Shown here one piece after another: positions 15,251-64,000 of a stretch of DNA of 64,000 bases (position 1 is its first letter; each line of letters begins with the position of its first letter). The DNA is taken from NCBI GenBank assembly GCA_030431485.1, contig JAUIIR010000001.1:1-64000 (forward strand), read 5' to 3'. The stretch is from Alphaproteobacteria bacterium. Lineage in GTDB: Bacteria > Pseudomonadota > Alphaproteobacteria > Rhodobacterales > Rhodobacteraceae. A model generated the notes under the pieces. The model was not told where the DNA came from. It saw nothing but the letters and a program-made list of their open reading frames with translations, and made no database searches. Position numbers and translations under genes: made by a program.

Positions 15251-15267
15251 GATGCAGGGAGGAAGCC

Positions 15268-34695: not shown

Positions 34696-34845
34696 TGATC
34701 CTCCAGCTCTATCTGCAGCAAGCCTCGTATGCATGGCGGAAAAGATGGCTCCGGACAACTCGGGCCCGCGACACGCGAGGCAGGTCTTCACAGGCTTTGG
34801 CTATGGTGGCTTGTCTCGGCTGGCAATTGGCCGCATCTTCGCGCC

Positions 34846-39269: not shown

Positions 39270-39278
39270 GCCGTCTCA

Positions 39279-39306
39279 GAGCGGCGCGACACAGGTTGCG
39301 CCGCTC
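39279..39306 (+). terminator. Intercistronic hairpin in the TRAP operon
   Basis: Perfect 9-bp stem GAGCGGCGC / GCGCCGCTC with a 10-base loop, just after the binding-protein gene and 110 bp before the permease gene. The following ACTTTCTGC is a poor T-tract. Likely a partial terminator or 3'-end stabiliser that raises the binding-protein to permease ratio. Confidence 0.65.
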
Positions 39307-39416
39307 ACTTTCTGCATCCCGCGACGATTGCGTCGCACTTCTCAAGATGCATTACTTTTCCACGTTATGATGCGCCGACGCGACGGCCAAGGCGACTCTT
39401 TGCCAAGGAGGGGGCA

Positions 39417-43332: not shown

Positions 43333-43357
43333 AATGATATCCTCCCTATCGCTGATG

Positions 43358-45882: not shown

Positions 45883-45930
45883 TCGTCTCCTCCCCGTGTT
45901 GTGCAGACGGTAGGCGGTTGAAAACACTTT

Positions 45931-45947
45931 TGTCAAACGGTTTGACA
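45931..45947. promoter_or_regulatory. 17-bp perfect palindrome in the mtnK / ABC divergent promoter
   Basis: TGTCAAACGGTTTGACA: 8-bp perfect arms around one central base, 48 bp from the GTG of the ATPase gene and 62 bp from the mtnK ATG. It is the only strong dyad in the 127-bp gap. The SorC-type regulator at 48379 is the likely ligand-dependent binder. Confidence 0.75.
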
Positions 45948-46009
45948 TTAGTCCAAATTGAAGGCTAACCAGAAAGGAAGGGCGCATCAGAGGATAGGGG
46001 AGGTCACCG

Positions 46010-48369: not shown

Positions 48370-48378
48370 GGCGCCCCG

Positions 48379-49386: not shown

Positions 49387-50063
49387 CACCTGCAGCCCCG
49401 CTGCCCGACACCGAGGAAACCCGTCAGGCATTGATCGACGCCTGCCTTTGGATGAATGAGCGACACCTCAATCAGGGGACGTCGGGGAATATCTCGGCGC
49501 GGATCGACAGCGGAATTCTCATCACGCCTTCCGGTGTTCCTTATGAAGCGCTGACGCCCGAGGCAATGGTCACCATTCCTCTGTCCGGATTGCCCGAAGC
49601 GGGTGGCCCGAAGCCGTCGTCAGAATGGCCGTTTCATCAGGGCCTGCATCAGGCGCGACCCGATATGCCGGTCGTCCTGCACGCGCACCCGCCCTATTGC
49701 AGCATCCTGGCCGTTCAGCGCCGGCCGATCCCGGCATGCCACTACATGATCGCGGCTTTTGGCGGTGCGGATGTGCCTCTGGCGGACTATGCGCTCTTTG
49801 GCAGTCCGGAGCTTTGTGCCAATATGGCGGACATTATGTCGGACCGGCACGGGTGTCTGATGGCCAATCATGGCGCCACGGTTCTGGGAGAAACGGTGGA
49901 CAAAGCGCGATGGCGGTTAGAGGAGCTCGAGACGCTGGCGCGCACGTATCTGTTCAGCAGTATTGGCGGTGCGCCGCATATTTTGTCGGACAAGGACATC
50001 GCAGAGGTTCTGGTCGCGTTCCAGACCTACGGTCCGCGCCCGGTTAAACAGTCAGAAGGATAG
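49383..50063 (+). CDS. Class II aldolase, FucA/Ald2/DrdA-like
   Basis: 226-aa zinc aldolase of the AraD/FucA family. Catalytic Glu in KPSSEWPFH, zinc His pair in LHAHPPYCS and the third His in MANHGATVLG are all present, as is the phosphate-binding GTSGNISARI. Next to mtnK and mtnA, the expected reaction is cleavage of 5-methylthioribulose-1-P or 5-deoxyribulose-1-P to DHAP plus an aldehyde. The Glu, typical of true aldolases, argues against the dehydratase MtnB. Confidence 0.87.
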   Translation: MTPAAPLPDTEETRQALIDACLWMNERHLNQGTSGNISARIDSGILITPSGVPYEALTPEAMVTIPLSGLPEAGGPKPSSEWPFHQGLHQARPDMPVVLHAHPPYCSILAVQRRPIPACHYMIAAFGGADVPLADYALFGSPELCANMADIMSDRHGCLMANHGATVLGETVDKARWRLEELETLARTYLFSSIGGAPHILSDKDIAEVLVAFQTYGPRPVKQSEG

Positions 50064-50074: not shown

Positions 50075-51154
50075 ATGCAGTATCGCAATTTGGGACGTAC
50101 CGGCCTGAAAGTCTCGGTTATCACGATGGGGACGTTTACCTTTGGCGGGCGAGGGGCCTTCGGGCGCACAGCCAGCCAGGATGTCAGCGATGCGCGTCGG
50201 CTTGTGGACACCTGCATCGACAATGGTGTCAATCTGTTCGACACGGCGAATATGTATTCCACGGGGCTCTCCGAAGAAATTCTGGGCGAGGTTCTGGAAG
50301 GGCGGTATGACAATATTCTTGTGACTTCGAAGGCGCGGATGCCGATTGGCGACGGCCCCAATGACGAAGGGGTGTCGCGGTGGCATCTGATCCGGGAATG
50401 TGAGCGGTCTCTCAAGCGTCTGCGCACCGACCATATCGACATCTACTATATGCACGAATGGGATGGACTGACGCCGATCGAAGAAAAGATGGAGGCGCTG
50501 CATACCTTGGTCCAGCAGGGCAAAATCCGCTATCCTGGCTGCTCGAATTACTCGGCCTGGCATGTGATGAAGTCCCTGGCGGCGGCGCCCAGCCATTCCA
50601 GTCGCTTTGCCACGCAGCAGATCCACTATACCATCGAGGCTCGGGAAGCCGAGTACGAGCTGCTTCCACTTTCCGTTGATCAGGGTCTGGGTGTTCTTGT
50701 CTGGTCACCTTTGGCTGCGGGTCTGCTATCCGGTAAACACCGGCGCGGGGCCGACACGCCCGAGGGATCGCGTCAGGCGGCGGGGTGGAATGAACCCCCG
50801 ATCCGCGACATGGAGCGGCTTTGGAATATTGTAGATGCTTTGGTCGACATCGGCGACGCACACGGAGTCGAGGCCGCACAGATCGCGTTGGCGTGGTTGC
50901 TAACCCGTCCCGCTGTTGCGTCTTTGGTTGTTGGTGGGCGCAGCGTCGATCAGTTCGAGCGCAATTTCCGTGCAGTTGATATTGTCTTGTCCGAGGAAGA
51001 ATTGCAGCGGCTCAACGACGTCAGCCGTCTGCCTTTGGTCTATCCGTATTGGCACCAGCACAACTTTGCCCGCTCGCGCTTTACTCAGGCGGATCAGGCG
51101 CTGCATGCCGATTATCCGGATCGTCACTATGGTGGGGAAGACCCGTTGGTGTGA
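50075..51154 (+). CDS. Aldo/keto reductase
   Basis: 359-aa NAD(P)H-dependent oxidoreductase. The catalytic tetrad is visible: Asp56, Tyr61, Lys86 and His127 (FDTANMY, TSKARM, YYMHEWD). It lies 11 bp after the aldolase on the same strand, so it may reduce the released aldehyde (methylthioacetaldehyde or acetaldehyde) or act on the incoming sugar. GGGGAGAG ribosome site. It is followed directly by a strong terminator that ends the mtn operon. Confidence 0.88.
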   Translation: MQYRNLGRTGLKVSVITMGTFTFGGRGAFGRTASQDVSDARRLVDTCIDNGVNLFDTANMYSTGLSEEILGEVLEGRYDNILVTSKARMPIGDGPNDEGVSRWHLIRECERSLKRLRTDHIDIYYMHEWDGLTPIEEKMEALHTLVQQGKIRYPGCSNYSAWHVMKSLAAAPSHSSRFATQQIHYTIEAREAEYELLPLSVDQGLGVLVWSPLAAGLLSGKHRRGADTPEGSRQAAGWNEPPIRDMERLWNIVDALVDIGDAHGVEAAQIALAWLLTRPAVASLVVGGRSVDQFERNFRAVDIVLSEEELQRLNDVSRLPLVYPYWHQHNFARSRFTQADQALHADYPDRHYGGEDPLV

Positions 51155-51212: not shown

Positions 51213-51812
51213 TCAGCGCCCGGTCGCTGCCTTGACGACGGATTGCATGGCCAGCATGCCCGGATCATCCATGCCGATGCTTTTCTCGCCAAAGATGCGC
51301 GCGCGGCCAACAGTTGCAGGTTTATCGCGGAAATCGACCATCGCCTGATCCACGGCATCCGCCGCAGCCTGTGCCATATCATCGGCGCCATCCGTCGCCT
51401 TCGCGACATAGTCCAGACTGTCGAGCACTGTCTTGCCACCGAGCTCCGCTTTGCCGCGCTCCTGCATCTTGTCGCGGGCTGCCGCGATAAGCTCGGGAAC
51501 GTTTGCGGTGTCGATGCTTTCTTCGCCGCGCAAAGTCTTTGCGGCGCTCATCAGACCGGTTGCCATCAGCGTGCCGTAGGACGATCCCGAGGATTTGGTG
51601 AAAGCCTGCGCACATTGGAACAACGCCATGCCAATGTCATTCGGCAGATCATCTTTCATAGCGGTGATCGCCCGCATGCCCCGGGTCATGGTCACGCCAA
51701 GATCGCCATCCCCAAGCGCACCGTCGGCGCTGTTTAGCATGTCAAAATCGCGTTCCATTGCGGCGGTGATCCGGTCAATGGCGGCCAGAAGCGTATCGCG
51801 CGTGATGGTCAT
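51213..51812 (-). CDS. dhaL: Dihydroxyacetone kinase nucleotide-binding subunit DhaL-like
   Basis: 199-aa DhaL-fold protein. Metal/nucleotide-binding aspartates Asp30, Asp35 and Asp37 are kept (NSADGALGDGDLGVTMTRGM), as in E. coli DhaL, and the GSSYGTLMATGLM loop is present. It would transfer phosphate to the ketone held by DhaK. No DhaM or other PTS gene is nearby, so the donor (ATP or a distant DhaM) is open. Start overlaps the dhaK stop by 4 bp. Last gene of the minus-arm operon. Confidence 0.88.
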   Translation of the reverse strand: MTITRDTLLAAIDRITAAMERDFDMLNSADGALGDGDLGVTMTRGMRAITAMKDDLPNDIGMALFQCAQAFTKSSGSSYGTLMATGLMSAAKTLRGEESIDTANVPELIAAARDKMQERGKAELGGKTVLDSLDYVAKATDGADDMAQAAADAVDQAMVDFRDKPATVGRARIFGEKSIGMDDPGMLAMQSVVKAATGR

Positions 51813-52810
51813 CCAACCCTCCAGAAGGCGCAGTCGCAGGGCGCGTTCAGGAGCTTTTCCAACTCGTCGTCCAGTTTACAAAGCGTGAATGAGACGCCAG
51901 CCATTTCCATCGACGTCGCATAGCGGCCAACCAAAGGCATGACGATTGTGGCTCCTGCGTCTTCAAGTCGAGATTTTACCATCCGGTAAAGAATGTAGAG
52001 TTCCTCTGGTGGCGTTGCCCCGAGAGAGTTCACCATAACCGAGACCCTGTCACCATTGGTCAACGGCATATCGGCCAGCAGTCGGTCCATCATCTCGCCT
52101 GCGATGTCGTCTGCCGTCTTGAGCTTGCCGCGCCAGACGCCGGGTTCACCGTGGATGCCCATGCCCATTTCCATTTCGTCATCGGCAATCTCAAATGTGG
52201 GCTTGCCTGCTTGTGGCACGGTGCAGGGCGACAGCGCTGCGCCGATGGACCGGCAGGCGTCTGCGGCTTTCTGAGCAACGGCGGTCACCGCGTCAAGATC
52301 TCGGCCTTCTTCGGCTGCAGCTCCCGCAATCTTGAACGCATAGACCATGCCAGCCACGCCTCGGCGTTTTTCGGCTTCTTCCGGCGGGGCAGAGGCCACG
52401 TCGTCGGCCAAAAGGACGGTGGTGCAGGTGATGTCTTCAAACTCGACAAGCTCTCCGGCCATGTCGAAGTTCATGACGTCGCCGCCGTAGTTGCCATAGA
52501 GCCGCAGCACACCCGCGCTGCTGTCGGCGGCCCGGATGGCATCGGCCATCTGTTCGGCGGACGGAGAGGCAAAAACATCTCCAATCGCACAGGCGTCGAG
52601 CAAGCCTTCTCCGACATAGCCAGTGAACACGGGTAGGTGACCCGAGCCGCCGCCGGTGACGATACCAACCTTGCCCGATTTCCCGGCCTTTGCACGGGCG
52701 ACGACTTTGCCGCTGTCGCCGTGCAGACGGTAATATTCGGGATGGGCGGCTGTCATACCCGCCAGCATTTCGTCGACATAGTTCTCTGGATTATTGAGGA
52801 TCTTTTTCAT
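51809..52810 (-). CDS. dhaK: Dihydroxyacetone kinase substrate-binding subunit DhaK-like
   Basis: 333 aa. Residues that bind dihydroxyacetone in E. coli DhaK are present: His58 in GGGSGHLP, Asp111 in YGNYGGDVMNF and the covalent His220 in MGMGIHGEPG. The family also includes erythrulose and other short-ketose kinases. Encoded after the LsrACDB-like importer, so the substrate may be an imported or derived C3-C5 ketose. The start at 52810 follows GGGAGGAACC. Confidence 0.9.
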   Translation of the reverse strand: MKKILNNPENYVDEMLAGMTAAHPEYYRLHGDSGKVVARAKAGKSGKVGIVTGGGSGHLPVFTGYVGEGLLDACAIGDVFASPSAEQMADAIRAADSSAGVLRLYGNYGGDVMNFDMAGELVEFEDITCTTVLLADDVASAPPEEAEKRRGVAGMVYAFKIAGAAAEEGRDLDAVTAVAQKAADACRSIGAALSPCTVPQAGKPTFEIADDEMEMGMGIHGEPGVWRGKLKTADDIAGEMMDRLLADMPLTNGDRVSVMVNSLGATPPEELYILYRMVKSRLEDAGATIVMPLVGRYATSMEMAGVSFTLCKLDDELEKLLNAPCDCAFWRVG

Positions 52811-52843
52811 GATCTTGGTTCCTCCCGCTCAGGATGTGATGTC

Positions 52844-53854
52844 TTATTTTGAGGGTTTCAGGCTGGCCCGCAGGGCGGATACGGCATTGGTGTTGATCAC
52901 CATCACAAGGATCAGCAGTGCGCCCCAGATCAACTCGCGTGCGAAGTTCGACACCTGCAGCATGTTCAATCCGCTGGACAGGAACTGCATCGACAGAACA
53001 GCCAGAACGACGCCAATCACGCGACCATAGCCGCCATAGGGGTTCACGCCGCCCAGAACCGCGATCAGAACGGCCAGAAGCAGATAGGACGAGCCGTAAT
53101 CCGCTTTCGCAGAGTTGGCGCGGCTCATGATGATCAACCCTGCCACCGAGGCGAACATGCCCGCGATCACGTACACCTTGAGCAACATGCGGTTGATGTC
53201 GATCGCCGCGTAAAGAGCCGCCAGCGGGTTTGCACCATACATCGTCACGCGCAGGCCAAAGGCGGTTCGGGTCAGGATCAGGTGCAGCAGGACGGCCAGC
53301 AGGGCAAAGAGCACCAGCGGCACCGGAATACCAAGGAGCCTGGCATTTCCGATCACAGCGACCGTGTCCGGAAAGCCCATGACCGCGCTGCCTCCGGTCA
53401 TCGCAATGGCAAAGCCTGTGAAGACCAAGCCAGAGCCGAGTGTCGCGAGAATAGGGGGCAAGCCGAAAAATGCCACCAGCGAGCCGTTGATGATCCCGGC
53501 CATCGCGCCGATGGCAATTGCGACGGCAATGGCTATGGCAAGCCAGAGCACCGATTGTGAGGCTGGCATCGCAGGATCGGCATAGGTGGTCAGGATCATT
53601 GCAGCGGCCACGGCGGACAGGTTGGCGATGCCGACAACTGACAGGTCAATGCCCCCGGTCATCATCGCAATTGTCATCGCCAGCGCGAGGATTGCGAATT
53701 CCGGGAACTGGAATGCCATTGAAATCAGGTTCTGCGATGACAGGAACCGATCCGGTGACAGAACCGCCATCAGGGCAAAGACGAAGACCGCGATCACCAG
53801 GAGCCGGAACTCCGGGCTTGCGAATGTGGATTTGGTGGGTGCGTGTGCTGCCAT
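52844..53854 (-). CDS. Sugar ABC transporter permease (LsrD/RbsC-like)
   Basis: 336-aa BPD_transp_2 permease with about nine hydrophobic segments; motifs ALAMTIAMMTGGIDLSVVGIAN and FFGLPPILATLGSGLVF. It is one of two non-identical permeases (the other at 53862), so the channel is probably a heterodimer, as in LsrC/LsrD. Begins 7 bp after the neighbour's stop. Confidence 0.9.
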   Translation of the reverse strand: MAAHAPTKSTFASPEFRLLVIAVFVFALMAVLSPDRFLSSQNLISMAFQFPEFAILALAMTIAMMTGGIDLSVVGIANLSAVAAAMILTTYADPAMPASQSVLWLAIAIAVAIAIGAMAGIINGSLVAFFGLPPILATLGSGLVFTGFAIAMTGGSAVMGFPDTVAVIGNARLLGIPVPLVLFALLAVLLHLILTRTAFGLRVTMYGANPLAALYAAIDINRMLLKVYVIAGMFASVAGLIIMSRANSAKADYGSSYLLLAVLIAVLGGVNPYGGYGRVIGVVLAVLSMQFLSSGLNMLQVSNFARELIWGALLILVMVINTNAVSALRASLKPSK

Positions 53855-53861
53855 GATGCTG

Positions 53862-54863
53862 TTACCCCGCCCGAGCCGCTGCCCGCTTGGCTCGATAGGC
53901 GGGAACGCCTGTGCCCAGCAGGATCAGGATGCCGATTGTAACTGACTGCCAAGTGGTCGGGATGCCGACGACAATCAGACTGTTTTGTACGATCACGATC
54001 AGCGCGACACCGAGCAGTGTTCCGGTCAGTGTGCCATAGCCACCGATCAGACGCGCGCCGCCCAGAACGACGGCTGCAATCACCGAAAGCTCCAGTCCGA
54101 CCAGCGAGAACGGGTCAGCCATGCGTCCCACAGAGCCGTGGATGATGCCTGCCAGACCTGCCAGCGCGCCCACATAGACGTAGACAAAGAACTGCGTCCA
54201 GGTGACGTTGATGCCGATGCGCCGTGCGCTTTCAACGGATCCCCCGATGGCATAGATCGACCGGCCCAGCATGGTCTTTTTCAAAATGAACCAAGTCAGC
54301 ACGATGACAAACACCAATGCGAGTGCGGCCCAGGGGATCGAATAGAAATTGCCCGCTTCCGTGGTGCCGCGCGCAAGGACGCCGCGCGAGAAATCCCGCA
54401 TCGACGGGGGCAGGGCCGAAATGCGCTGAGAGCCAATGAAGGTGAGCAGAAAGCCCCGGAAAATCGACAATGTGCCTAGAGTGACGATGAGGGTCGGCAG
54501 TCCAAGAAATGCTATGAAGAACCCGTTTATCGCGCCAAGCAACGATCCTATGAGGATTGATACGACAAAGATCAGAGGCCAAGGCGCGTCAGGCCAGACA
54601 GCGAGGAAGAACACCGTTGAGGCGTACATCGCGAAGACCGCAATGGCGGTAAAGCTCACGTCAATCCCACCAGACACCAGCACCAGCATGGCGCCCACGG
54701 CAAGAATGCCGATGACAATCGATGCGCGCAGCAGGTCAGAGACCGTGGTGATCGTGAAAAAGCGCGGATCGGACAGCGTGGCCAATACACAGAACGCGAT
54801 GATCACGCCTGCAACCAGTGTTTCGTTTCGGGTCCAGAAGTCTTTGGGAAGCCAGTTCGTCAT
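53862..54863 (-). CDS. Sugar ABC transporter permease (LsrC/RbsC-like)
   Basis: 333-aa BPD_transp_2 permease; motifs AVGAMLVLVSGGIDVSFTAIA, FIAFLGLPTLIVTLGTLSIF and the coupling loop GGSVESARRIGINVTWTQ. Overlaps the ATPase gene by 4 bp. Partner of the permease at 52844. Confidence 0.9.
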   Translation of the reverse strand: MTNWLPKDFWTRNETLVAGVIIAFCVLATLSDPRFFTITTVSDLLRASIVIGILAVGAMLVLVSGGIDVSFTAIAVFAMYASTVFFLAVWPDAPWPLIFVVSILIGSLLGAINGFFIAFLGLPTLIVTLGTLSIFRGFLLTFIGSQRISALPPSMRDFSRGVLARGTTEAGNFYSIPWAALALVFVIVLTWFILKKTMLGRSIYAIGGSVESARRIGINVTWTQFFVYVYVGALAGLAGIIHGSVGRMADPFSLVGLELSVIAAVVLGGARLIGGYGTLTGTLLGVALIVIVQNSLIVVGIPTTWQSVTIGILILLGTGVPAYRAKRAAARAG

Positions 54864-56356
54864 GACGCCAACCTGTGCGCGAGGTCTTCTTCGGTAACCG
54901 ATTTGCCATCGAGCGCATCAATGATCCGCCCGTCACGCATCACGAGGATGCGGTGGCATGTGGCCAGCAATTCGGGCAGGTCGTCCGAGATGACAATGAC
55001 CCCGATCCCCGTGCTTGCAAGATCGCGGACGATGTCGTGGATGTCTGCCTTTGAGCCGACATCGACGCCGACGCTTGGTCCGTTCAGTATCAGAACCCGT
55101 GGGGCACGTGACAGCCAGCGGGCCAAAGCCACTCGTTGTTGGTTGCCGCCGGAAAGCGATTGCACGGGGGCTTCGATGTCAGAGGCTTTGACCTTAAGCC
55201 GTTTGAGCCAGTCTGCAGCTTCGTCCACCAGCGCCGACATGTTGAGCCAACCGCCATTTACATGGGCATCGAGTCGTCCCACAGCAACATTGCGGACTAT
55301 GGACTGGTTCAGGAACAGGCCTTCGGTCAAACGGTCCTCGGGTACATAGCCAATCCGTGCTTCTGATGCAGCTTGCGGATCGCCCGTCGGGATGGTTTTG
55401 CCATCAATGCTGATGCTTCCCGCGTCCGGGGAGACCAGACCGAACAGGGCTTTCGCGACAGATGTCCGCCCACTGCCCAAGAGCCCGGTGATCCCCAGAA
55501 CCTCGCCTGTCTTGAGGTCGAAGTCGATATCTTCAAACGCACCTGCCTTGCTGAGGCCGCGAACCTGCAAAAGGGTCTCGGCGCCGGGCATGATGTCGCT
55601 TGGCGGAACTTCGGGCACGTCACGCCCGGTCATGTGGTATGTCAGCGATTTGGTGTCGAATTCAGTGGCCGGGCCTTCGGCGACCTTTTTGCCGTTGCGG
55701 AGCACAACGACTTTTTCTGAAACTTCAAGCACTTCAGCGAGTTTGTGGCTAACGAAGATGACCGCAACGCCTTCTTCCTTCAGCATCCGGATGATGCCTT
55801 GCAGGCGGCGTACCTCTTTTTCCGTCAGGGCCGTGGTTGGCTCGTCCATGATAATCAGCTGTGCCTGTGACGCGAGCGCGCGGCAAATCGCGACAAGCTG
55901 CTTCTGAGCGACAGGCAGGGCTTCGACACGCGTATCGAGGTCGATCTCCACCCCGATCCGTTCAAGCGCCTTGCGCGCAATCTCTTTTGTGGCGCGGGAT
56001 TTGTAAAACCGCTCATGTGTTGAAAGCTGGGTGGCAAATGCGATGTTTTCGGCCACGCTCAGGTTCGGGAAGAGTGAGAAATCCTGAAAGATCACCATGA
56101 CACCGGCGGCGGCCGATATGCGCGGGTTCAGTGTGCGGCGCTCTTGGCCGGCAATGCGGATTGTGCCTTCGGTGGCGGGTTCGACGCCTGAGATGATCTT
56201 GATGAGGGTAGATTTTCCGGAACCGTTTTCTCCGGCCAGACAAACCGCTTCGCCGGGTTGAACGGAGAAATCGACAGAGTCGAGCGCCGTTACCCCTGCG
56301 TATCGCTTGGTGATCGCGCGCAGATCGACAAACGCGGTGTCACGTTCTGAAGACAT
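54860..56356 (-). CDS. Sugar ABC transporter ATP-binding protein, tandem domains (LsrA/RbsA-like)
   Basis: 498 aa with two ABC domains: canonical Walker A GENGSGKST and VAQKQLVAICRALA/LIIMDEPTTALT in the first, GLLGSGRTS and LSGGNQQRVALARWL in the second. The ATG at 56356 is preferred over an in-frame TTG at 56362; the ribosome site is weak for both. Second gene of the minus arm, 73 bp after the binding-protein gene. Confidence 0.9.
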   Translation of the reverse strand: MSSERDTAFVDLRAITKRYAGVTALDSVDFSVQPGEAVCLAGENGSGKSTLIKIISGVEPATEGTIRIAGQERRTLNPRISAAAGVMVIFQDFSLFPNLSVAENIAFATQLSTHERFYKSRATKEIARKALERIGVEIDLDTRVEALPVAQKQLVAICRALASQAQLIIMDEPTTALTEKEVRRLQGIIRMLKEEGVAVIFVSHKLAEVLEVSEKVVVLRNGKKVAEGPATEFDTKSLTYHMTGRDVPEVPPSDIMPGAETLLQVRGLSKAGAFEDIDFDLKTGEVLGITGLLGSGRTSVAKALFGLVSPDAGSISIDGKTIPTGDPQAASEARIGYVPEDRLTEGLFLNQSIVRNVAVGRLDAHVNGGWLNMSALVDEAADWLKRLKVKASDIEAPVQSLSGGNQQRVALARWLSRAPRVLILNGPSVGVDVGSKADIHDIVRDLASTGIGVIVISDDLPELLATCHRILVMRDGRIIDALDGKSVTEEDLAHRLAS

Positions 56357-56429
56357 GAACAACCAACTTGATTTGAGAGAATTGAAGGCGAGGGGGCGGC
56401 TGGGTGAGCCGCCCCGTGGTGGTCAAGGA

Positions 56430-57419
56430 TCAGAACGGATATTCGCCCATGTTGTCCTTGTTCACGTTCACCCAAGCCTGACCGTAGATGACCTTGCCAT
56501 CCAGAGACACACTCTCGTAGCCTGGCAGGCCGAGGTCCATTCCATCGGTGACTTCTTCACCGTTCATCACCATGACGGCGAGCTTGTTCATGGCTTCGCC
56601 TGCCACAGCGGGGTCCCAGAAACCGATGCCGTCAACCGCACCGGTTTCAAGATACTGACCGGCAATCGAAGGCAGTGATGTGCCGAACACGCAAGTGTCG
56701 TCTTCCATGCCACGTTCTTCGATGGCGCGGCCAATGCCTGCTACGTCGGTCGAGGCCGAGCCCTGCATGCCTTTGATGTTCGGGAAGGCCCGTAGCACTT
56801 CCTGTGCCTTGGTGTATGCCTGTTCGGCGTCGTCGAATGTTTCGTTCTTGTCGCCGACCAGCGTCATGTTCGGATAGTTGGCCTCCTGATATGCAATGGC
56901 GCCATCCACCCATTGGTTGTGGGTCTGCGACGTCAGCGATCCGACGAAGACTGCATACTCCCCTTCGCCGCCCATGCAGGTGGCCAACTGCTCCATCAGG
57001 TTTGCGCCGAAGTCTTCGTTCACAAAGGCTTCAAGGTCATACGCCGTGTTCTGTTGTGCTGCGGCTTCGTGTGTGATGACCGCGATGCCTGCTTCCATTG
57101 CGCGGCCGAGAACCGGCTCAAGAGCTTCGGGCGACATCGGAACGACCGCGAGTGCGTTGACGCCCTGCGCGATCATGTCTTCGATCAGAGCGACCTGCTG
57201 CTGAGGGTCGGCCTGCGCCGGGCCAACCTGAAATGCGTTCATGCCGGTTTCCTCGGCGAACTTGTTGACGCCTTCCTCCATGCGGTTGAACCACTGGATG
57301 CCCGCGATCTTTACGACGGTTGCGATGTTTTTCGAGTGACCGTCAGCGACGGCTTGCGTTCCGACAAGAGCCGAAGCAGCGAGTGCGGCACCGGCAAGCA
57401 GTTTGGTTTTGGTCTTCAT
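56430..57419 (-). CDS. Sugar ABC transporter substrate-binding protein (LsrB/RhaS-like)
   Basis: 329 aa with a signal peptide ([25 protein letters not shown]). It aligns along its length with the LsrB/RhaS group ([48 protein letters not shown], final [11 protein letters not shown]). By eye the residues that contact AI-2 in Salmonella LsrB are mostly not kept: the TWDSD segment reads THEAA and the PDANA segment reads SASTD. The ligand is therefore probably not classical AI-2. First gene of the minus arm; GGGAGG ribosome site. Confidence 0.88.
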
Positions 57420-57554
57420 CTGATCCTCCCTTTGCCCGCATTTGCGGGTCATTGACTTGGGCAGCGGCCTGTCCGCCCACCCGAGCAGAAAAACGGTGTG
57501 CTGTGCCCCTCGGCGCTTATGAAATGCGGCAACCGCAGAGGCGTATCAACACTT

Positions 57555-57598
57555 GTGCATTGACTGCACGTTTGTGACTATATAATCAGAAAAGTCAC
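57555..57598. promoter_or_regulatory. Promoter and paired dyads in the SorC / importer divergent region
   Basis: GTGCA-TTGAC-TGCAC (57555-57569) and GTGACT-N13-AGTCAC (57574-57598) are inverted repeats. TTGACT at 57560 and TATAAT at 57581 form plus-strand promoter-like hexamers, but with a short 15-base spacer. The dyads overlap both hexamers, which suits repression by the adjacent SorC-type regulator. A separate CCCGCA-TT-TGCGGG hairpin is at 57435-57448, close to the binding-protein start. Confidence 0.5.
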
Positions 57599-57644
57599 GG
57601 TCAAGCCATTTTGTCGCAGGAAGTCGGGAGGTCCGGGACAGGCA

Positions 57645-58619
57645 ATGTTGGTGCAAAAACGTCATGCTGATGACGACATCGCGCAGGCGGCTTGGCTTTA
57701 TTATGTTGGCAATCTGAGCCAGCAGGAGGTCAGTGCGCGGCTCGGCATTTCGCGCTTCAAGGTTTTGCGGATGCTGGCGGATGCGCGTGAACGGGGGCTC
57801 GTTCGAATCGCAGTTGAACATCGAACGTCGCGGACACTGGAACTGGCGGATCAGCTTGTCTCTTGTTTCGATTTGCAGGAAGCTCAGGTCGCCCCGATCG
57901 GCGTTGACGCCGACGATGAGGAACTGGCGCGCAACGCGGTGGCAATTCTGGCCAGCGGTTACCTTAACCGCATCGCTGGAACTGATACCCCGTTGACTGT
58001 TGGACTGGGGTGGGGCCGGACATTGTCGGCGATGGCTGACAATGTGACCGGCGTGCGCAATTCCGGTCTCACTTTCGTGTCGCTTATGGGGTCCGTTACC
58101 TATGCGTCCCATACGGCGCCGGGCGATGTCTGTGTGCGGCTGGCTGACCAAACTGGCGGACGGGCCATTCTGATGCCCGCACCTTTTGTTACCGACAGTG
58201 CGGAGGCCTGCGCCGGGATCATTTCGCAGCGGCTGGTGCACGAGGCCATGGAGATCGCAAGGCGTGCAGATCATGCGCTGATGAGTGTCGGTGAATGCCG
58301 AGAGGGGGCCATTCTCTTCGACAGCGACATCTTTACAGCCGAACAAATCCAGCAGCTGCGCGACGCTGATGTTGTCGGGGATTGCTGTGGCGTTTTCTAC
58401 AAGGCTGACGGGACCGTGGCAGATATTGAGCTGAACCGGTGCACGCCCTGCGTTCAACCGGCGGATATGGCGGAGATGGAAACAGTGCTTCTCGCTGCCG
58501 GGTCTGGAAAGCTCGCGGCGACGCTCGCCGTTTTAAGGGCAGGATTTGTCAAACGGCTTTTGGTGGATGAGCGGCTTGCCGTGGCGCTTGTCGCGGCCGC
58601 AGGAGGGGAGGGCCACTGA
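57645..58619 (+). CDS. SorC/LsrR-type sugar-binding transcriptional regulator
   Basis: 324 aa with an N-terminal HTH (AAWLYYVGNLSQQEVSARLGISRFKVLRMLADA, ~14-46) and a SorC sugar-phosphate domain (LTVGLGWGRTLSAMADNV, GDCCGVFYKADG). It belongs to the same family as the regulator at 48379, but the HTH recognition region differs. Divergent from the importer operon and first gene of the plus arm; it shares one base with the next gene (TGATG). Probably controls both arms in response to a phosphorylated intermediate. Confidence 0.88.
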   Translation: MLVQKRHADDDIAQAAWLYYVGNLSQQEVSARLGISRFKVLRMLADARERGLVRIAVEHRTSRTLELADQLVSCFDLQEAQVAPIGVDADDEELARNAVAILASGYLNRIAGTDTPLTVGLGWGRTLSAMADNVTGVRNSGLTFVSLMGSVTYASHTAPGDVCVRLADQTGGRAILMPAPFVTDSAEACAGIISQRLVHEAMEIARRADHALMSVGECREGAILFDSDIFTAEQIQQLRDADVVGDCCGVFYKADGTVADIELNRCTPCVQPADMAEMETVLLAAGSGKLAATLAVLRAGFVKRLLVDERLAVALVAAAGGEGH

Positions 58620-59467
58620 TGCAGGGCTTCGGCGTTCACACCAGTATGTGGACCATGACATGGGACAGAGCAGGCTGCGAAGCGGCTGTTGCAAAGGCGA
58701 AATCCTATGGCATGGACTTTCTCGAAATCGCGCTTTTGGACCCACCCAGTGTTGATGCCGCACATAGTCGCGCTGTTCTGGAGGCCGCCGAGATGCGTGC
58801 GGTCTGTTCGCTCGGTCTGCCAGAGGCGGTGTGGGCGTCGCGCAACCCGGATGGCGCGGTCGATTTTCTAAAGGTGGCACTGGACAAATGTGCGGCGTTG
58901 GGTGCCGAAGCGCTTTCAGGTGTCGTCTATGGCGGGATCGGCGAACGGTCGGGCCTGCCGCCGACACAGGGCGAGCTGGACAATGTCGCTGATGCAATGA
59001 CGCGCGCCGCGAAGCACGCCAAGTCACTTGGCCTGCAATTTGGCATTGAGCCGGTGAATCGCTATGAAACCCACTTGCTCAACACTGGCTGGCAAGTAGT
59101 GGACCTGATCGAACGCATCGGGGCGGACAACATGTTTGTCCATCTTGATACTTATCACATGAATATCGAGGAAAAGGGCATCGCCCAGGGCATCATCGAC
59201 GCCCGCGAACACCTTCGCTACATCCACCTATCCGAATCCGACCGAGGTACACCCGGGGCGGGAACCATCGCTTGGGACGAAATTTTCGGCGCATTGCGGG
59301 CCATTGGGTTCAAGGGCGGGTTGGCGATGGAAAGCTTTATCAACATGCCGCCAGAGATTGCCTTTGGTCTCTCGGTCTGGCGTCCCGTCGCCTCGGGCGA
59401 GGCGGAGGTGATGGAGAACGGCTTGCCATTCCTGCGCAACAAGGCCCGGCAATACGGGCTGATCTGA
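58619..59467 (+). CDS. Ketose 3-epimerase-like TIM-barrel enzyme (tagatose/psicose epimerase family)
   Basis: 282 aa. The metal ligands of D-tagatose 3-epimerase relatives can be placed: Glu144 (GIEPVNRYETH), Asp177 (HLDTYHMNIEE), His203 (IHLSESDRGTPG) and Glu238 (AMESF). VNRYETHLLNT and SESDRGTPG are close to the epimerase signatures. It would epimerise or isomerise a free or phosphorylated ketose. Translationally coupled to the SorC regulator and upstream of the dehydrogenase genes. Confidence 0.85.
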   Translation: MQGFGVHTSMWTMTWDRAGCEAAVAKAKSYGMDFLEIALLDPPSVDAAHSRAVLEAAEMRAVCSLGLPEAVWASRNPDGAVDFLKVALDKCAALGAEALSGVVYGGIGERSGLPPTQGELDNVADAMTRAAKHAKSLGLQFGIEPVNRYETHLLNTGWQVVDLIERIGADNMFVHLDTYHMNIEEKGIAQGIIDAREHLRYIHLSESDRGTPGAGTIAWDEIFGALRAIGFKGGLAMESFINMPPEIAFGLSVWRPVASGEAEVMENGLPFLRNKARQYGLI

Positions 59468-59489
59468 CGACATCCGAAGGACATTCAGA

Positions 59490-60503
59490 ATGAAGAACAC
59501 ATCGCTGCCACAGCTGTATGAGGACATGCGCCGTGTCCGGACCTTTGAAGAGCGCGTGGGAGAGCTGTTTGTGCGTGGGCAATCGGCAGGGTCCATGCTT
59601 CACCTGTCCATCGGTGAGGAAAGTGCCGCCGTTGGGGTGTGCGCGCAAATGCGCGACGGCGATACCTTTACGACCCATCACCGTGGCCACGGTATTTTTC
59701 TTGCGCGCGGAGCCGATCCAAATCGCATGATGGCCGAGATTGCAGGCAAGGATTCCGGTTACTGCCACGGCAAGGGCGGGTCGATGCACATTGCGGATAT
59801 GGGCCTCGGTCATCTGGGCGCGAATGCGATTGTTGGGGGCGGTATCCCGGCGGTTGTTGGCGCAGGTCTCTCGGCGCGGCACAAAAAGAACGGAGCTGTC
59901 TCCATCGCTTTTTTCGGCGACGGCGCGACCGGGCAGGGCATCCTGTACGAGAGCATGAACATGGCGGCGCTTTGGCGGCTGCCAGTGGTGTTTGTATGCA
60001 TCAACAACCAGTACGGCATGGGGACGCGGATTGATCAGGCGACCGCCAACCCCAAGCTGCACGAACGCGCCGCCGCTTTTGGCCTGGCGGCCCGCACGGT
60101 AGATGGGCTGGACGTCGAAGAGGTGGCGGACGCGGCTGCCGAGCTGATCGCGGGCGCGCGTTCAGGCAAGCCTGCGTTTCTGGCGGTTGATTGTTATCGC
60201 TTCTTTGGCCACGCAAGAAAGGACAAGTCGCCGTATCGCGATGCGGCTGAAGAAGAGGCCGGGCGCAAGAAAGACCCTGTCCTTCAGGCAAGAGGCAAGC
60301 TGATTGCCTCCGGTTTGTTATCAGAGGCTGATCTTGATGCGCTGGACCAGAAAGTTGCAGCCGAAATGGATGCTTCGATTGAATTTGCCGTCGCTGGTGA
60401 AGAGCCACAGCTGAAATCCATGTTCCGCGATGTCTATGCCCCTTCACAACCGGAGCCAGAGCCGGTGCGGACGCGTCTTGATCGTATTTTGGCACAGGGG
60501 TAG
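59490..60503 (+). CDS. ThDP-dependent dehydrogenase E1 alpha subunit (acetoin dehydrogenase AcoA-like)
   Basis: 337 aa. ThDP/Mg motif GDGATGQGILYESMNMAALW...NNQYG, with HHRGHGIFLARG and CHGKGGSMHI as in AcoA/PdhA. Pairs with the E1 beta gene 5 bp downstream. Acetoin dehydrogenases cleave a hydroxyketone to acyl-CoA plus an aldehyde. Whether this one uses acetoin, another hydroxyketone or a 2-oxoacid cannot be read from the sequence. Confidence 0.92.
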   Translation: MKNTSLPQLYEDMRRVRTFEERVGELFVRGQSAGSMLHLSIGEESAAVGVCAQMRDGDTFTTHHRGHGIFLARGADPNRMMAEIAGKDSGYCHGKGGSMHIADMGLGHLGANAIVGGGIPAVVGAGLSARHKKNGAVSIAFFGDGATGQGILYESMNMAALWRLPVVFVCINNQYGMGTRIDQATANPKLHERAAAFGLAARTVDGLDVEEVADAAAELIAGARSGKPAFLAVDCYRFFGHARKDKSPYRDAAEEEAGRKKDPVLQARGKLIASGLLSEADLDALDQKVAAEMDASIEFAVAGEEPQLKSMFRDVYAPSQPEPEPVRTRLDRILAQG

Positions 60504-60508
60504 CGCAG

Positions 60509-61489
60509 ATGGCCGTACAGGAAACAACCTACCGCGATGCGCTGCGTCTTGCTCTGTCCGAGGCGATGTCGGCGGATGACAGTGTGATCATTATGGGCGA
60601 AGAGGTCGGTCGCTATGGCGGCGCATATGGGGTCACGAAGGACCTGATCAAAGACTTCGGTGGCGACCGTGTGATAGATACACCGATTTCCGAGGCAGCC
60701 ATTGTCGGGGCTGCAGTCGGCGCGGCGATGACGGGGCTGCGTCCGGTGGCCGAGTTGATGTATGTCGATTTCATCGGCATGACGATGGACCAGTTGGCCA
60801 ATCAGGCAGCCAAAATCCGATACATGTTTGGCGGTCAGATCGGTGTCCCGATGGTCCTGCGCACCCAAGGCGGCACAGGACGTTCCGCAGGCGCGCAGCA
60901 CAGCCAGAGCCTTGAGGGCTATGTCATGCACACGCCCGGCTTGCGTCTTGCCATGCCAGCAACGGTGGACGATGCCTATCACTTGCTGCGCCAGTCGCTT
61001 CAGCAACCAGACCCGGTGGTGTTCATTGAGCACAAGGGCCTCTACACAATAAAGGGCACGCTTGATCCGGACGATGCGCCAGCCGAGTGGGGCAAGGCAA
61101 AGCTACTTCGTGAGGGAGACGATCTGGTTGTTGTGACCTATTCAAGACAGGTGCATCACGCTTTGGTTGCAGCCGAAACACTGGCGTCACAGGGGATTGA
61201 AGCTGCAGTTGTTGATCTGCGCACGTTGAACCCGCTGGATTTTGATACAATCGGTCCGCTTGTTGAACGGTCCGGTCGTGCAATGGTCGTGTCCGAAGGT
61301 GCCATGACCTGCGGTGTCGCGGCAGAGCTTTCGGCGCGTATCACCGAGGAATGTTTCGACTACCTTGAGGATCCGGTGGTGCGGGTAGCGGGCGAGGATA
61401 TCCCGATCTCGGTGTCCCCTCTACTTGAGCAGAACTCGGTGCCGACGCCTAAGCTGATCGTCGAGACGGCGCGGAAGTTGTTCATATGA
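60509..61489 (+). CDS. ThDP-dependent dehydrogenase E1 beta subunit (AcoB-like)
   Basis: 326 aa transketolase-like pyrimidine-binding subunit. MGEEVGRYGGAYGVTKDLI with the ThDP-activating Glu region, DTPISEAAIVGAAVGAAM and the C-terminal transketolase domain (VVTYSRQVHHALVAAE, VVDLRTLNPLD). Forms the alpha2beta2 E1 with the preceding subunit. Overlaps the E2 gene by 4 bp. Confidence 0.93.
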   Translation: MAVQETTYRDALRLALSEAMSADDSVIIMGEEVGRYGGAYGVTKDLIKDFGGDRVIDTPISEAAIVGAAVGAAMTGLRPVAELMYVDFIGMTMDQLANQAAKIRYMFGGQIGVPMVLRTQGGTGRSAGAQHSQSLEGYVMHTPGLRLAMPATVDDAYHLLRQSLQQPDPVVFIEHKGLYTIKGTLDPDDAPAEWGKAKLLREGDDLVVVTYSRQVHHALVAAETLASQGIEAAVVDLRTLNPLDFDTIGPLVERSGRAMVVSEGAMTCGVAAELSARITEECFDYLEDPVVRVAGEDIPISVSPLLEQNSVPTPKLIVETARKLFI

Positions 61490-62706
61490 GCACTTCCAGT
61501 AAGCTGACCCTGCCAATGCCCCGGCTTGGCGAAACGATGGACGAAGGGACCATCGCGGAATGGCTGGTTCAGCCCGGCCAAAGCTTCTTGCGGGGCGATC
61601 CACTGCTTGAGGTGGAAACCGACAAGACGATGGTAGAGTATCCGGCATTGGGCGGCGGAACATTCGTTGAAGCGCTTGTGTCGGTCGGGGACGTGGTCGC
61701 GGTCGGCACTCCGATTGCAGTTATCGAAACGACAGACGTATGGGATGCGCTAGACGATGCGAGCCCGCCGGAAACAGAACCCACTGCACCCGAGCCGGTG
61801 GCTGGCGGTGTTCCAACGCCCGCACATGCAGGCACAACGACACGCAAACGCGCAACGCCCCTTGCGCGTCGATTGGCGCAGCAAAACGGCATAGGCCTTG
61901 AAACTGTCACCGGTACAGGCAGGCGCGGACGGATTGAGGCTTCAGATGTGCGGTCTCTGGTGTCGCCGGGTGCGACGCCGAAACGAGTGACACGCTCTGT
62001 CAGAACGAATGCGACGGTCTTACTGGTGCACGGATTTGCGGGCCTCGGCTCAAACTGGGCGGCGCTCAGGGCAATGCTGCAGCGAGGTGGTGCCAAGACC
62101 CACGCGCCGGACCTGCCAGGACACGGCCGGAATGCGACTGAGGCTGTTGATGTCACGACGCTGATTGACTGGCTGAGCGCTGAACTGGCGCACCAGCCCG
62201 AACCTGTTCATCTTGTGGGCCATTCCCTCGGCGCGCATGTGGCTGCAAAGGCCGCTCAGCGCGATCCGTCGCGTGTGACCCACTTGACGTTGGTTGCCCC
62301 GGCGGGATGTGGCCTCGACATCAATGGCGCTTTTCTATCCGGCATGGCATCCGCGCCGGGCGTCGGAGAACTGTCACATCTGATGCGCCTGCTTGGCCGA
62401 AGGGCTCGCCAATTGGACGACGCAGCTTTATCCGCAATGGCGCAGGAACTCCGAGGGAAACGCCTTACCTCATTGGCCAGCGCTGTTGCGCGCGACAATG
62501 TGCAAAGCGTGGACACGCTGTCAGCACTGCGTGCCTTGGGGGACACTGTGGGTGTGACCGCAATTTTCGGGCTGGAGGATCTGATCATTCCCAAGGAACA
62601 TGTCTTCCAGATGCCGTCTGCCATCGCCTGTCACATGGTTGAGGCCGGGCACATGCCGCATTGGGACGCTACAGAGGAGGTTGCCGCCATCATCGCAGAG
62701 ACATGA
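61486..62706 (+). CDS. E2-like protein: lipoyl domain, E3-binding domain and alpha/beta hydrolase (AcoC type)
   Basis: 406 aa. Lipoyl domain (~5-82) with lipoyl-Lys47 in VETDKTMVE, peripheral subunit-binding domain (~122-156, ATPLARRLAQQNGI...GTGRRGRIEASDV), then an alpha/beta hydrolase (~175-406) with nucleophile Ser247 in GHSLGAH and a C-terminal GHMPHW His. The hydrolase takes the place of the usual acyltransferase domain, as in AcoC of acetoin dehydrogenases. This supports a hydroxyketone-cleaving complex rather than a 2-oxoacid dehydrogenase. No E3 gene is in the window. Confidence 0.9.
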   Translation: MSTSSKLTLPMPRLGETMDEGTIAEWLVQPGQSFLRGDPLLEVETDKTMVEYPALGGGTFVEALVSVGDVVAVGTPIAVIETTDVWDALDDASPPETEPTAPEPVAGGVPTPAHAGTTTRKRATPLARRLAQQNGIGLETVTGTGRRGRIEASDVRSLVSPGATPKRVTRSVRTNATVLLVHGFAGLGSNWAALRAMLQRGGAKTHAPDLPGHGRNATEAVDVTTLIDWLSAELAHQPEPVHLVGHSLGAHVAAKAAQRDPSRVTHLTLVAPAGCGLDINGAFLSGMASAPGVGELSHLMRLLGRRARQLDDAALSAMAQELRGKRLTSLASAVARDNVQSVDTLSALRALGDTVGVTAIFGLEDLIIPKEHVFQMPSAIACHMVEAGHMPHWDATEEVAAIIAET

Positions 62707-62735
62707 GGCGCAACCGCATTAGGGAGGATGGGAGT

Positions 62736-64000
62736 TTGGCGTATTTCTTGACAGCCGATGGTGGCACAGAAAGCTTGCGTGTGCGGATTTACGATGTGCA
62801 GGGAACGTGTGTCGCCTCGCATGCCGAACCCTACGAGACCACCTTTTCACCCGGTGCCCGCGCTGAACAAAACCCCGAAGATTGGTGGCGCAGTCTGTGT
62901 GTCGCATCGCGGGCCTGTCTGGCAGAAGCGGGTTTGAGCGGTGATCAGATTGAAGCAATGGCCTACGCCACAACCTGCTGTACGGTTGTGGCATTGGATG
63001 CGTCTGGCGCCCCGCTGCGTCCGGCACTGCTCTGGATGGATGTCCGCGCTGACAAGGAGGCGGAGGCGGTTCTGGCGACTGGGGATACCCGACTCAGACT
63101 GAACTCCGACGGCTCGGGGCCTGTTTCGGCGGAATGGATGATCCCGAAAGCACTTTGGATCAAACGAAACGAGCCCGAAATCTATGATGCTGCGGAAACG
63201 ATCTGCGAATATCAGGACTACCTCACGCTGCGTCTAACCGGCGAACGCTGTGCTTCGCTGAACAATGTGGGTTTGCGTTGGCACTATGCCAATCGGGACG
63301 GCGGTTGGGCTGAAAGTCTGGTCTCGGCCCTGGGAATGGCGGACCTTGTCGAAAAATGGCCGTCGCGTGTTGCGGTCCCCGGCGAAGTTGTTGGACATCT
63401 GACGGCGGACGCTGCTGAGGCTCTGGGTCTTACGACCAACACCAAGCTGGTGCAGGGCGGAGCGGATGCTTTGATCGGGATGATTGGCCTCGGAGTGTCG
63501 CAACCGGGGCAGTTGTGTCTTATTACAGGGTCGTCGCACCTGCAGTTTGGCGTGACCGAAAAACCGTTTCACGCATCAGGCATGTGGGGAGCCTACGCCG
63601 ATATCGTTTACCCCAATCGCTACATCATCGAAGGCGGGCAGACCTCGACTGGATCTATCATTAACTGGCTGCGACGTTTTGTTGGCGGAGAGTTTGATTT
63701 CGACGAGATGAACCGTAAGGCGGCTGCCTTGCCGCCGGGATCGGACGGGTTGATTGTCCAAGACCATTTTCAAGGCAACAGGACGCCTTACACAGACGCC
63801 CTGTCACGCGGTGCAATCACGGGCCTCACTCTGGCGCACGAGCCGCATCACGTGTTCCGCGCCATCATGGAAGGCATTTCGATGGGCACACGCGCGATCC
63901 TCGATTCCTTTGCGAAAGGTGGCTATGAGGGCAGTGAGATGGTTGCAGGGGGAGGTGCTACAAATTCAGACCTCTTCATGCAAATCCATGCCGATACCGC
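62736..64000 (+). CDS. FGGY-family carbohydrate kinase, truncated by the window end
   Basis: Open frame to the right edge (421 codons, the family is ~500 aa). Motifs: ADGGTESLRVRIYD phosphate loop, ALLWMDVRAD, CEYQDYLTLRLTG and EGGQTSTGSIINW, closest in style to ribulokinase/xylulokinase. The start is uncertain: TTG at 62736 has AGGGAGG 7 bases upstream, while an in-frame ATG at 62703 overlaps the E2 stop (ATGA) and adds 11 residues. It would phosphorylate a ketose or polyol in the same pathway as the upstream genes. Confidence 0.87.
   Translation, partial: MAYFLTADGGTESLRVRIYDVQGTCVASHAEPYETTFSPGARAEQNPEDWWRSLCVASRACLAEAGLSGDQIEAMAYATTCCTVVALDASGAPLRPALLWMDVRADKEAEAVLATGDTRLRLNSDGSGPVSAEWMIPKALWIKRNEPEIYDAAETICEYQDYLTLRLTGERCASLNNVGLRWHYANRDGGWAESLVSALGMADLVEKWPSRVAVPGEVVGHLTADAAEALGLTTNTKLVQGGADALIGMIGLGVSQPGQLCLITGSSHLQFGVTEKPFHASGMWGAYADIVYPNRYIIEGGQTSTGSIINWLRRFVGGEFDFDEMNRKAAALPPGSDGLIVQDHFQGNRTPYTDALSRGAITGLTLAHEPHHVFRAIMEGISMGTRAILDSFAKGGYEGSEMVAGGGATNSDLFMQIHADT

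Follow-up and report, generated by a model that had tools for sequence, protein, structure and literature searches.

The described systems closest to the locus reported here are the acetoin dehydrogenase/butanediol operon, the dihydroxyacetone phosphate (DHAP) shunt and the Lsr system for autoinducer-2 (AI-2). The locus lies at the end of a 64,000-nucleotide stretch of DNA from a member of the Rhodobacteraceae (GenBank assembly GCA_030431485.1, contig JAUIIR010000001.1, positions 1 to 64,000), which was analysed at its full length and is called the window. Two arms diverging around a single SorC-family regulator combine a CUT2-type ABC sugar importer and the kinase subunits DhaK and DhaL with an epimerase-like enzyme, the E1alpha, E1beta and E2 of a thiamine pyrophosphate (TPP)-dependent complex and an FGGY kinase. 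The acetoin/butanediol operon (AcoABC, AcoX and butanediol dehydrogenase) likewise encodes E1alpha, E1beta and an AcoC-type E2 with lipoyl and alpha/beta-hydrolase domains, and its CMD gene and short-chain dehydrogenases/reductases (SDRs) are shared with stand-alone relatives of the locus, whereas the window E1alpha, 45% identical to true AcoA, belongs to a clade of its own, AcoX and AcoR are missing, and the ties are instead with the importer, FGGY, DhaK/DhaL and SorC. According to the available parts of two sources (PMC6079011, PMC12632272), the DHAP shunt, which handles 5-deoxyribose and methylthioribose, is made up of MtnK, MtnA and a class II aldolase (Ald2). MtnK and MtnA, both above their cut-offs, and a class II aldolase are adjacent to the locus and co-occur with it genome-wide, but the shunt module has its own importer and SorC, and the arm with E1/E2, DhaK/DhaL and FGGY is outside the shunt as those parts describe it. 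The Lsr system shares the CUT2 importer, the SorC regulator and the FGGY kinase, but the window binding protein has lost the ligand residues, the Lsr cut-offs are missed and the locus has no LsrF or LsrG. Operons of Chelatococcus and Sinorhizobium resemble the locus in their epimerase (71-76% identity) and CUT2 importer; they differ in having a LacI regulator, another FGGY kinase and a FucA-type aldolase of their own, with no DhaK/DhaL or E1/E2 in the fetched flank. Finally, SorC operons with a DRL-domain oxidoreductase also place E1/E2 in a sugar or polyol setting, with an AcoC-type E2 in the window's own genome and in Pseudoroseomonas, but a CUT1-type importer with PfkB, or a gut-type PTS, replaces FGGY and DhaK/DhaL, and the E1alpha of the own-genome operon is 42% identical to that of the window.

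No published pathway for the full gene combination was found in a literature search that left most subscription journals outside its coverage and that led to papers on the DHAP shunt and on 7-deoxysedoheptulose, and to that extent an earlier note on this DNA was right to call the locus undescribed; it is apparently an undescribed gene set of marine and soil bacteria. We propose, with a probability of roughly 0.4, that the locus imports and breaks down a ketose-type C5 deoxy sugar, with oxidative cleavage between C2 and C3 of the acetoin dehydrogenase type. What the sequence itself shows is one importer, one SorC regulator and one candidate operator, together with genes that remain associated despite rearrangement. 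The features of the locus are as follows.

50075-51154, plus strand: aldo/keto reductase (AKR); closest NCBIfam match to the model for methylglyoxal reductase YdjG, at 149.6 against a cut-off of 550.
51213-51812, minus strand: DhaL, ATP-binding subunit of a dihydroxyacetone-type kinase; PF02734, 117.5 bits; TIGR02365 98.7, missing the cut-off of 138.
51809-52810, minus strand: DhaK, substrate subunit; PF02733, 416.8 bits; TIGR02363 391.8 against a cut-off of 406.
52844-53854, minus strand: CUT2 sugar permease, LsrD/RbsC-like; PF02653; below every equivalog cut-off.
53862-54863, minus strand: CUT2 sugar permease, GguB/RbsC/LsrC-like; below every equivalog cut-off.
54860-56356, minus strand: double-domain sugar ABC ATPase; xylose, arabinose and Lsr ATPase models, all below cut-off.
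56430-57419, minus strand: periplasmic sugar-binding protein; PF13407, 225 bits.
57546-57575, plus strand: conserved palindromic site of 30 bp, core TTGTGCA-N5-TGCAC, putative SorC operator common to both arms.
57645-58619, plus strand: SorC-family regulator (SorC2); PF04198, 183 bits; LsrR model 103.7 against a cut-off of 486.
58619-59467, plus strand: ketose 3-epimerase-like TIM barrel; matches PDB entry 7dz5 and the psicose epimerase model.
59490-60503, plus strand: TPP-dependent E1alpha; PF00676; pyruvate dehydrogenase (PDH) model TIGR03182 325 against a cut-off of 394.
60509-61489, plus strand: E1beta; PF02779, PF02780; PRK09212 subfamily 346.5, above the cut-off of 321.
61486-62706, plus strand: AcoC-type E2; NF011457 330.6, above the cut-off of 307; lipoyl, E3-binding and alpha/beta-hydrolase domains.
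62736 (TTG)-64229, plus strand, running past the window end at 64000: FGGY pentulose-type kinase; XylB and ribulokinase models.

Open reading frame (ORF) and domain searches confirmed gene for gene the divergent layout around one SorC that the earlier note had described, with all its genes present, unbroken and on the strands it gave. The arms diverge from the gap at 57420-57644. The minus arm runs from the binding protein through the ATPase, the two permeases and DhaK to DhaL, and the plus arm from SorC through the epimerase-like TIM barrel, E1alpha, E1beta and E2 to the FGGY kinase. Since neighbours within an arm overlap by at most 4 bases or are separated by at most 33, except for the 73 bases between binding protein and ATPase (start probably the ATG at 56356, possibly the TTG at 56362 of the ORF list), each arm reads as a single operon. 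The note's start of the locus at 51213 did not hold: the AKR, which here is the last gene of an upstream row, follows FGGY in the E1 row of three relatives (L155, L156, L167), where it stands tail to tail with DhaL, and is counted as part of the locus for these reasons, while 42292-50063 is a linked DHAP-shunt module. DhaK and DhaL form a complete pair by PF02733 and PF02734, with a narrow miss of the equivalog cut-off for DhaK and a clear one for DhaL; DhaK carries the GIHGEPG motif including its His, which we take to be the substrate-binding residue, and no DhaM was found within the locus. The epimerase-like protein matches D-tagatose 3-epimerase (7dz5) at 483 bits (E 2.4e-144) and the psicose epimerase model at 157.5, below its cut-off of 300. 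The part of FGGY inside the window scores 232.7 bits with XylB, 213 with ribulokinase and 120 with AI-2 kinase, each below cut-off.

Genome contigs were scanned with the epimerase as query, and of the best 80 loci kept out of 547, 24 were of the window type (L037-L060) and 56 had a related epimerase in another setting (L061-L116). Matches had to cover more than 80% of the length and pass a per-gene identity threshold, the gene maps of relatives were drawn by simple ORF calling with approximate starts, and whole-genome counts refer to 23 genomes, that of L051 being left out. Among the 24 window-type loci, several of which are interrupted by contig ends, SorC2 was present in 23, the binding protein in 21, DhaK in 19, AKR in 18, E1alpha and E1beta in 16 each and FGGY in 15; these genes had zero matches in the 56 other-type loci. 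The E1alpha clade is represented by one copy in 22 of the 23 locus-bearing genomes, against 8 of 198 genomes of the family (Fisher 1e-22, uncorrected for kinship) and 2 of 385 of the class, the window's own genome being included in both backgrounds. The earlier note had suggested a genome-neighbourhood check of co-occurrence, and the families do recur together. Where E1/E2 do not adjoin the core, they are mostly found elsewhere in the same genome.

The gene set recurs in reshuffled form in Rhodobacterales, Hyphomicrobiales and SAR116, from Roseobacteraceae to Rhizobiaceae. In L155 and L156 a SorC gene diverges from an E1alpha-E1beta-E2-FGGY-AKR row that meets DhaL, DhaK and the importer, and the same row meets the core in L167. 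In L169, FGGY, E1alpha, E1beta, E2, binding protein, ATPase, two permeases, DhaK and DhaL all follow one SorC2 in the same direction, and in L170 FGGY-E1alpha-E1beta diverge from SorC2-epimerase. In genome G309, DhaK (81%) and DhaL stand with SorC, diverging from FGGY-E1alpha-E1beta-E2 beside a FucA-type aldolase (L135), and another contig carries a 69% binding protein about 11 kb from MtnK. Since the same partners are found in differing orders, one function for the gene set is suggested, and we hold with considerable confidence that the locus is a conserved functional unit.

The palindromic site was found in 21 of 21 aligned gaps between the binding protein gene and SorC2, and it probably binds SorC2. 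A scoring matrix built from these same 21 promoters gave, outside that set, scores of 40-41 in L049 and L058, 28.8 in the SorC2/FGGY gap of L169, 28.6 in L167 (gap preceding SorC2) and 16.8 in L059; the best score in shuffled windows (3 shuffles) was about -3.3. No second strong copy was found in the rest of the window or in the downstream stretch L002, and SorC2 is therefore not indicated as a direct regulator of the Mtn genes; a wider SorC2 regulon reaching them was considered and set aside for this reason.

In a tree of E1alpha, the 33 rows taken from loci of the window type and of a stand-alone type are united in a single clade on a long branch (support 100/99), apart from five other rows: the L164 acetoin E1, a Thermus gene annotated as acoA, a gene of Priestia, and two DRL-linked E1 sequences, one from a Rhizobium and one from the own genome. 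Two of these five have very long branches and none is a confirmed PDH. A PDH identity is opposed by the TIGR03182 score, 325 where 394 is the cut-off, and by the build of the E2. The E2 scores 330.6 with the AcoC model, where the AcoC of L164 reaches 484; an apparent Ser-Asp-His triad is seen by eye, and the 2-oxoacid acyltransferase domain PF00198 was absent from the domain search of E2. L164 is an acetoin/butanediol operon of Paracoccus pantotrophus with AcoX, AcoA, AcoB, AcoC, an SDR, CMD and butanediol dehydrogenase; AcoX, AcoR and butanediol dehydrogenase were not found beside the window locus. The locus has no E3, and three lipoamide dehydrogenases above the TIGR01350 cut-off are encoded elsewhere in the genome. 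In a stand-alone form, present in six plasmid records (Nitratireductor, Tritonibacter, Sinorhizobium, Shinella, Rhizobium and one labelled Roseateles), SorC and another importer accompany E1alpha-E1beta-E2-CMD-FGGY and one or two SDRs; its CMD is 42% identical to that of L164, and one of the six binding proteins, compared with the PDB, is of ribose type. By parallel with the acetoin operon, the SDRs or the AKR would produce the hydroxyketone that E1/E2 cleave. In Sinorhizobium meliloti Ak57 the E2 of the module is annotated as two ORFs (L126 15985-17303), and L151 has DeoC, aldehyde dehydrogenase and a SorC gene near its E1 operon (14077-18452). The earlier note's view that an Aco-like complex works here on a sugar or hydroxyketone is supported, with a putative substrate and a putative site of cleavage. 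On balance, ketol cleavage of the acetoin type within a sugar pathway is somewhat favoured.

The binding protein fits no equivalog (best NCBIfam models RhaS, 130 bits against a cut-off of 342, and LsrB, 113 against 384), so the label Lsr-like given to the importer is loose. Its nearest solved relative is 5bra (49% identity), followed by AauA (9i1m, 34%, titled 'with its substrate') and LsrB (23%), and a predicted structure (pLDDT 86.6) confirms the fold and kinship and nothing further. Nineteen positions were inspected around the likely sugar contacts and the regions of LsrB contacts; all are invariant among the window-type copies (22 of 22), and other clades differ at part of them. Because of this invariance the window-type proteins likely share one ligand. 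Binding-protein relatives at 48% and 52% have genes for ribokinase, DeoC and aldehyde dehydrogenase as neighbours. Excretion of 5-deoxyribose, methylthioribose and 7-deoxysedoheptulose by bacteria is described in the available parts of PMC8102628 and PMC10986504, and such sugars would therefore be available outside cells. A C5 sugar, probably deoxy, fits best as the ligand.

In the proposed pathway, the binding protein would import a pentose-sized deoxy sugar, and the 3-epimerase-like enzyme would fix its configuration at C3. In E1/E2, working with an E3 encoded elsewhere, TPP would attack the carbonyl and the C2-C3 bond would be cut as in acetoin dehydrogenase, releasing a two-carbon unit as acyl-CoA (acetyl-CoA if the substrate is a 1-deoxyketose) and leaving a C3 aldehyde or its phosphate. 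Phosphate would be added by FGGY to the ketose ahead of cleavage, or by DhaK/DhaL to the C3 fragment afterwards, so that triose phosphate results. The AKR, or the SDRs in the stand-alone form, may interconvert sugar, alditol and ketose or clear the aldehyde. The adjacent MtnK-MtnA-aldolase module would take the aldose side (5-deoxyribose, methylthioribose), so that both modules could jointly scavenge deoxypentoses shed by other cells. The upstream module has the following features.

42292-46194, minus strand: second CUT2 importer; binding protein 42292-43329, permease 43358-44368, ATPase from 44365, start uncertain.
46010-47269, plus strand: MtnK, methylthioribose kinase; TIGR01767 450.8, above the cut-off of 275.
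47266-48369, plus strand: MtnA, methylthioribose-1-phosphate isomerase; TIGR00512 433.7, above the cut-off of 279.
48379-49386, plus strand: second SorC regulator (SorC1), 30% identical to SorC2.
49383-50063, plus strand: class II aldolase of the DHAP-shunt module; FucA-like, 192 against a cut-off of 264.

The aldolase is FucA-like, below every cut-off, and is a candidate Ald2 counterpart. The second importer goes with MtnK/MtnA in relatives too. MtnK was found in 22 of the 23 locus-bearing genomes against 28 of 198 family genomes, apparently the same set as the E1alpha background to judge by number and identifiers; in 15 of these 23 genomes it is part of the fetched locus or no more than 2.2 kb beyond its end, on a side that varies by lineage, and in the other 7 it is elsewhere. 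In L059 SorC2-epimerase is directly followed by MtnK-MtnA-aldolase. The family sample, which was not selected for the locus, has MtnK in 8 of 8 E1alpha-bearing genomes and in 20 of the 190 others (Fisher 6e-8, kinship uncorrected), and at least 6 of those 8 also carry core genes. Neither MtnK nor MtnA nor this E1alpha clade was found in the fetched flank of any of the 56 other-type loci. The module thus appears linked to the present locus, a link that the earlier note had missed. A fusion of a class II aldolase with an SDR (PRK08324 type) stands near MtnK/MtnA in L048 (11639-13705), L157, L158, L160 and L161, alongside a FucU/RbsD-type mutarotase in L157 and L161. Further upstream in the window (34729-41687) are a sensor kinase and a sigma-54 response regulator, then an NMT1-like (TAXI-type) binding protein and a fused TRAP permease; immediately downstream of FGGY (L002 483-6401) follow a FIST-domain protein, a large hybrid kinase and a response regulator.

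The neighbouring shunt gives rise to the strongest rival, a route by C1 phosphorylation and aldol cleavage, which we nevertheless consider unlikely. An imported 5-deoxypentulose would be epimerised to 5-deoxyribulose and phosphorylated at C1 by DhaK/DhaL or FGGY, and the neighbouring class II aldolase would yield DHAP and acetaldehyde, leaving E1/E2 a side role. The presence of MtnK in 22 of 23 genomes, the aldolase or aldolase-SDR beside MtnK/MtnA in several genomes, and the importer, 71-76% epimerase, FGGY and FucA-type aldolase combined in Chelatococcus and many Sinorhizobium/Ensifer loci all speak for it, but it leaves the tightly kept E1-E2-FGGY group unaccounted for, the core itself has no aldolase, and the chemistry is conjectural.

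Import of a non-deoxy pentose or pentitol, from which E1/E2 would form glycolyl-CoA and a C3 aldehyde, has a smaller chance. The name of the 34% relative AauA presumably makes it a protein of Aau, the accessory L-arabinose uptake system in the available part of PMC11127945, and FGGY is nearest to xylulo- and ribulokinase models; plain pentulose phosphates, however, would make E1/E2 superfluous and would not account for the MtnK/MtnA linkage. Less probable again is a short hydroxyketone (erythrulose, dihydroxyacetone) that DhaK/DhaL phosphorylate directly. Among six binding-protein relatives at 51-56% identity, four (Roseibium, Ponticoccus, Sinorhizobium, Paracoccus) stand with DhaK/DhaL genes, but the other two (Aureimonas, and a Paracoccus with DeoC) do not, and the pentulose-type FGGY, the epimerase and the Mtn link would be unaccounted for. 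Related importers stand with DhaK/DhaL genes in L138-L141 (about 3.9-14.6 kb), and the Ponticoccus and Paracoccus importer loci have an annotated SorC-DhaK fusion, in which the regulator is joined to the kinase substrate subunit. DhaK was also considered as a guide to the substrate and rejected, the partners of its plasmid relatives (64-71%) being too varied: ETF, CoA-transferase and acetolactate-synthase genes, TTT or TRAP transporters, and others.

Uptake and Lsr-like degradation of an AI-2-like dihydroxypentanedione, the alternative offered by the earlier note, is quite improbable. AI-2 is itself a 1-deoxy C5 compound, and the importer, SorC and FGGY have Lsr counterparts, but in an alignment with SmLsrB only the Lys of the six presumed LsrB ligand residues is kept, in line with the loss that the note had suspected; LsrK scores 120 against 528 with a partial query and LsrR 104 against 486, and LsrF and LsrG are not among the locus genes, to which alone the search extended. 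AI-2 uptake was rated low on the lost residues and the missed LsrK and LsrR cut-offs. That E1/E2 are an ordinary pyruvate or acetoin dehydrogenase placed here by chance is scarcely credible: the 45% identity to AcoA, the PDH model match under its cut-off and human PDH E1alpha as best PDB match of E1alpha are outweighed by the separate clade (in a tree lacking a confirmed PDH row), the co-occurrence of 22/23 against 8/198, the single row with importer, FGGY and DhaK/DhaL and the shared candidate operator in L169, and an E2 of AcoC rather than acyltransferase type, so that E1/E2 are, as the note had supposed, no chance neighbour.

A second E1/E2 operon offers an analogy for the proposed deoxyketose cleavage. 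About 69 kb downstream on the same contig (C135, about 133.7-145.1 kb; L178 7717-19056), a CUT1-type ABC importer and a PfkB kinase diverge from a DRL-E1alpha-E1beta-E2-SorC operon, the E2 of which has the lipoyl/E3-binding/hydrolase build of the AcoC type. Its DRL is 71% identical to those of Rhizobium operons (L165 1894-7757, L175 1941-15161), which have a classical E2 and, in L175, E3, and 55% identical to that of Pseudoroseomonas (L176 565-12749), where a gut-type PTS is combined with an AcoC-type E2 (362 bits); the corresponding E1alpha identities are 69-70% and 66%. A Listeria locus (L177 6790-11604) combines SorC-DRL with a gut-type PTS, and the stretch seen holds no E1/E2. The Brucella DRL interconverts 1-deoxyxylulose 5-phosphate and methylerythritol phosphate. 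If the DRLs of these operons act likewise, the adjoining E1/E2 would split deoxyxylulose phosphate into acetyl-CoA and glyceraldehyde 3-phosphate, and the operons possibly represent an undescribed branched-polyol or deoxyketose pathway. Since the contig holds this second SorC operon with DRL, E1 and AcoC-type E2, such complexes may be a wider theme. A bolder idea, which we think doubtful, is that the lipoyl-coupled TPP complex runs the chemistry of 1-deoxyxylulose 5-phosphate synthase in reverse and oxidatively, so that 1-deoxypentulose (as 5-phosphate, made by FGGY), CoA and NAD+ would give acetyl-CoA and triose (phosphate); such complexes would have been recruited more than once, in the FGGY/DhaKL type and in the DRL type with PfkB or PTS, as a general and so far unrecognised route for deoxyketoses and methyl-branched polyols. 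Contig C163 of the same genome holds a further epimerase (73%) beside a Chelatococcus-type CUT2 importer (L036 26-6736); no FucA-type aldolase was matched within the 16 kb fetched. Overall, the interpretation of the earlier note as an undescribed Aco-like sugar locus is supported in part; it missed the Mtn link, the AKR, the stand-alone E1-E2-FGGY form and the second E1/E2 operon.

Several points weigh against import and C2-C3 cleavage of a deoxy sugar. The substrate itself is putative, DhaK/DhaL, FGGY and E1/E2 together exceed the needs of one linear route, and DhaK says little on the substrate because its nearest plasmid relatives keep quite different partners. FGGY, epimerase, binding protein and AKR all score below the equivalog cut-offs. 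The conservation of the epimerase in L037-L060 is circular because these loci were picked by epimerase similarity, the epimerase lies away from the locus in G019 and G111, and the co-occurrence statistics are uncorrected for relatedness. Primorskyibacter flagellatus (L040, G691) has the core and MtnK without an E1alpha of the clade, the genome of L055 is the sole one of the 23 in which MtnK was not found, and beyond the family MtnK was found in 2 of 3 E1alpha-bearing genomes at 43-44% identity. In L169 a second promoter is possible, since about 200-290 bases part E2 from the binding protein gene. The DRL comparison is an analogy with an operon about 69 kb off and with E1alphas that share 42% identity.

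If the proposed pathway is correct, acetoin-dehydrogenase-type chemistry would no longer be confined to a four-carbon fermentation product but would include sugars, and the role of the divergent AcoC-type E2 with its hydrolase domain would become testable. The locus would then provide a second bacterial route, besides the DHAP shunt, for the excreted deoxypentose waste of S-adenosylmethionine enzymes. Since SAR116 and Roseobacteraceae carry it, it may also have a bearing on carbon flow in the surface sea.

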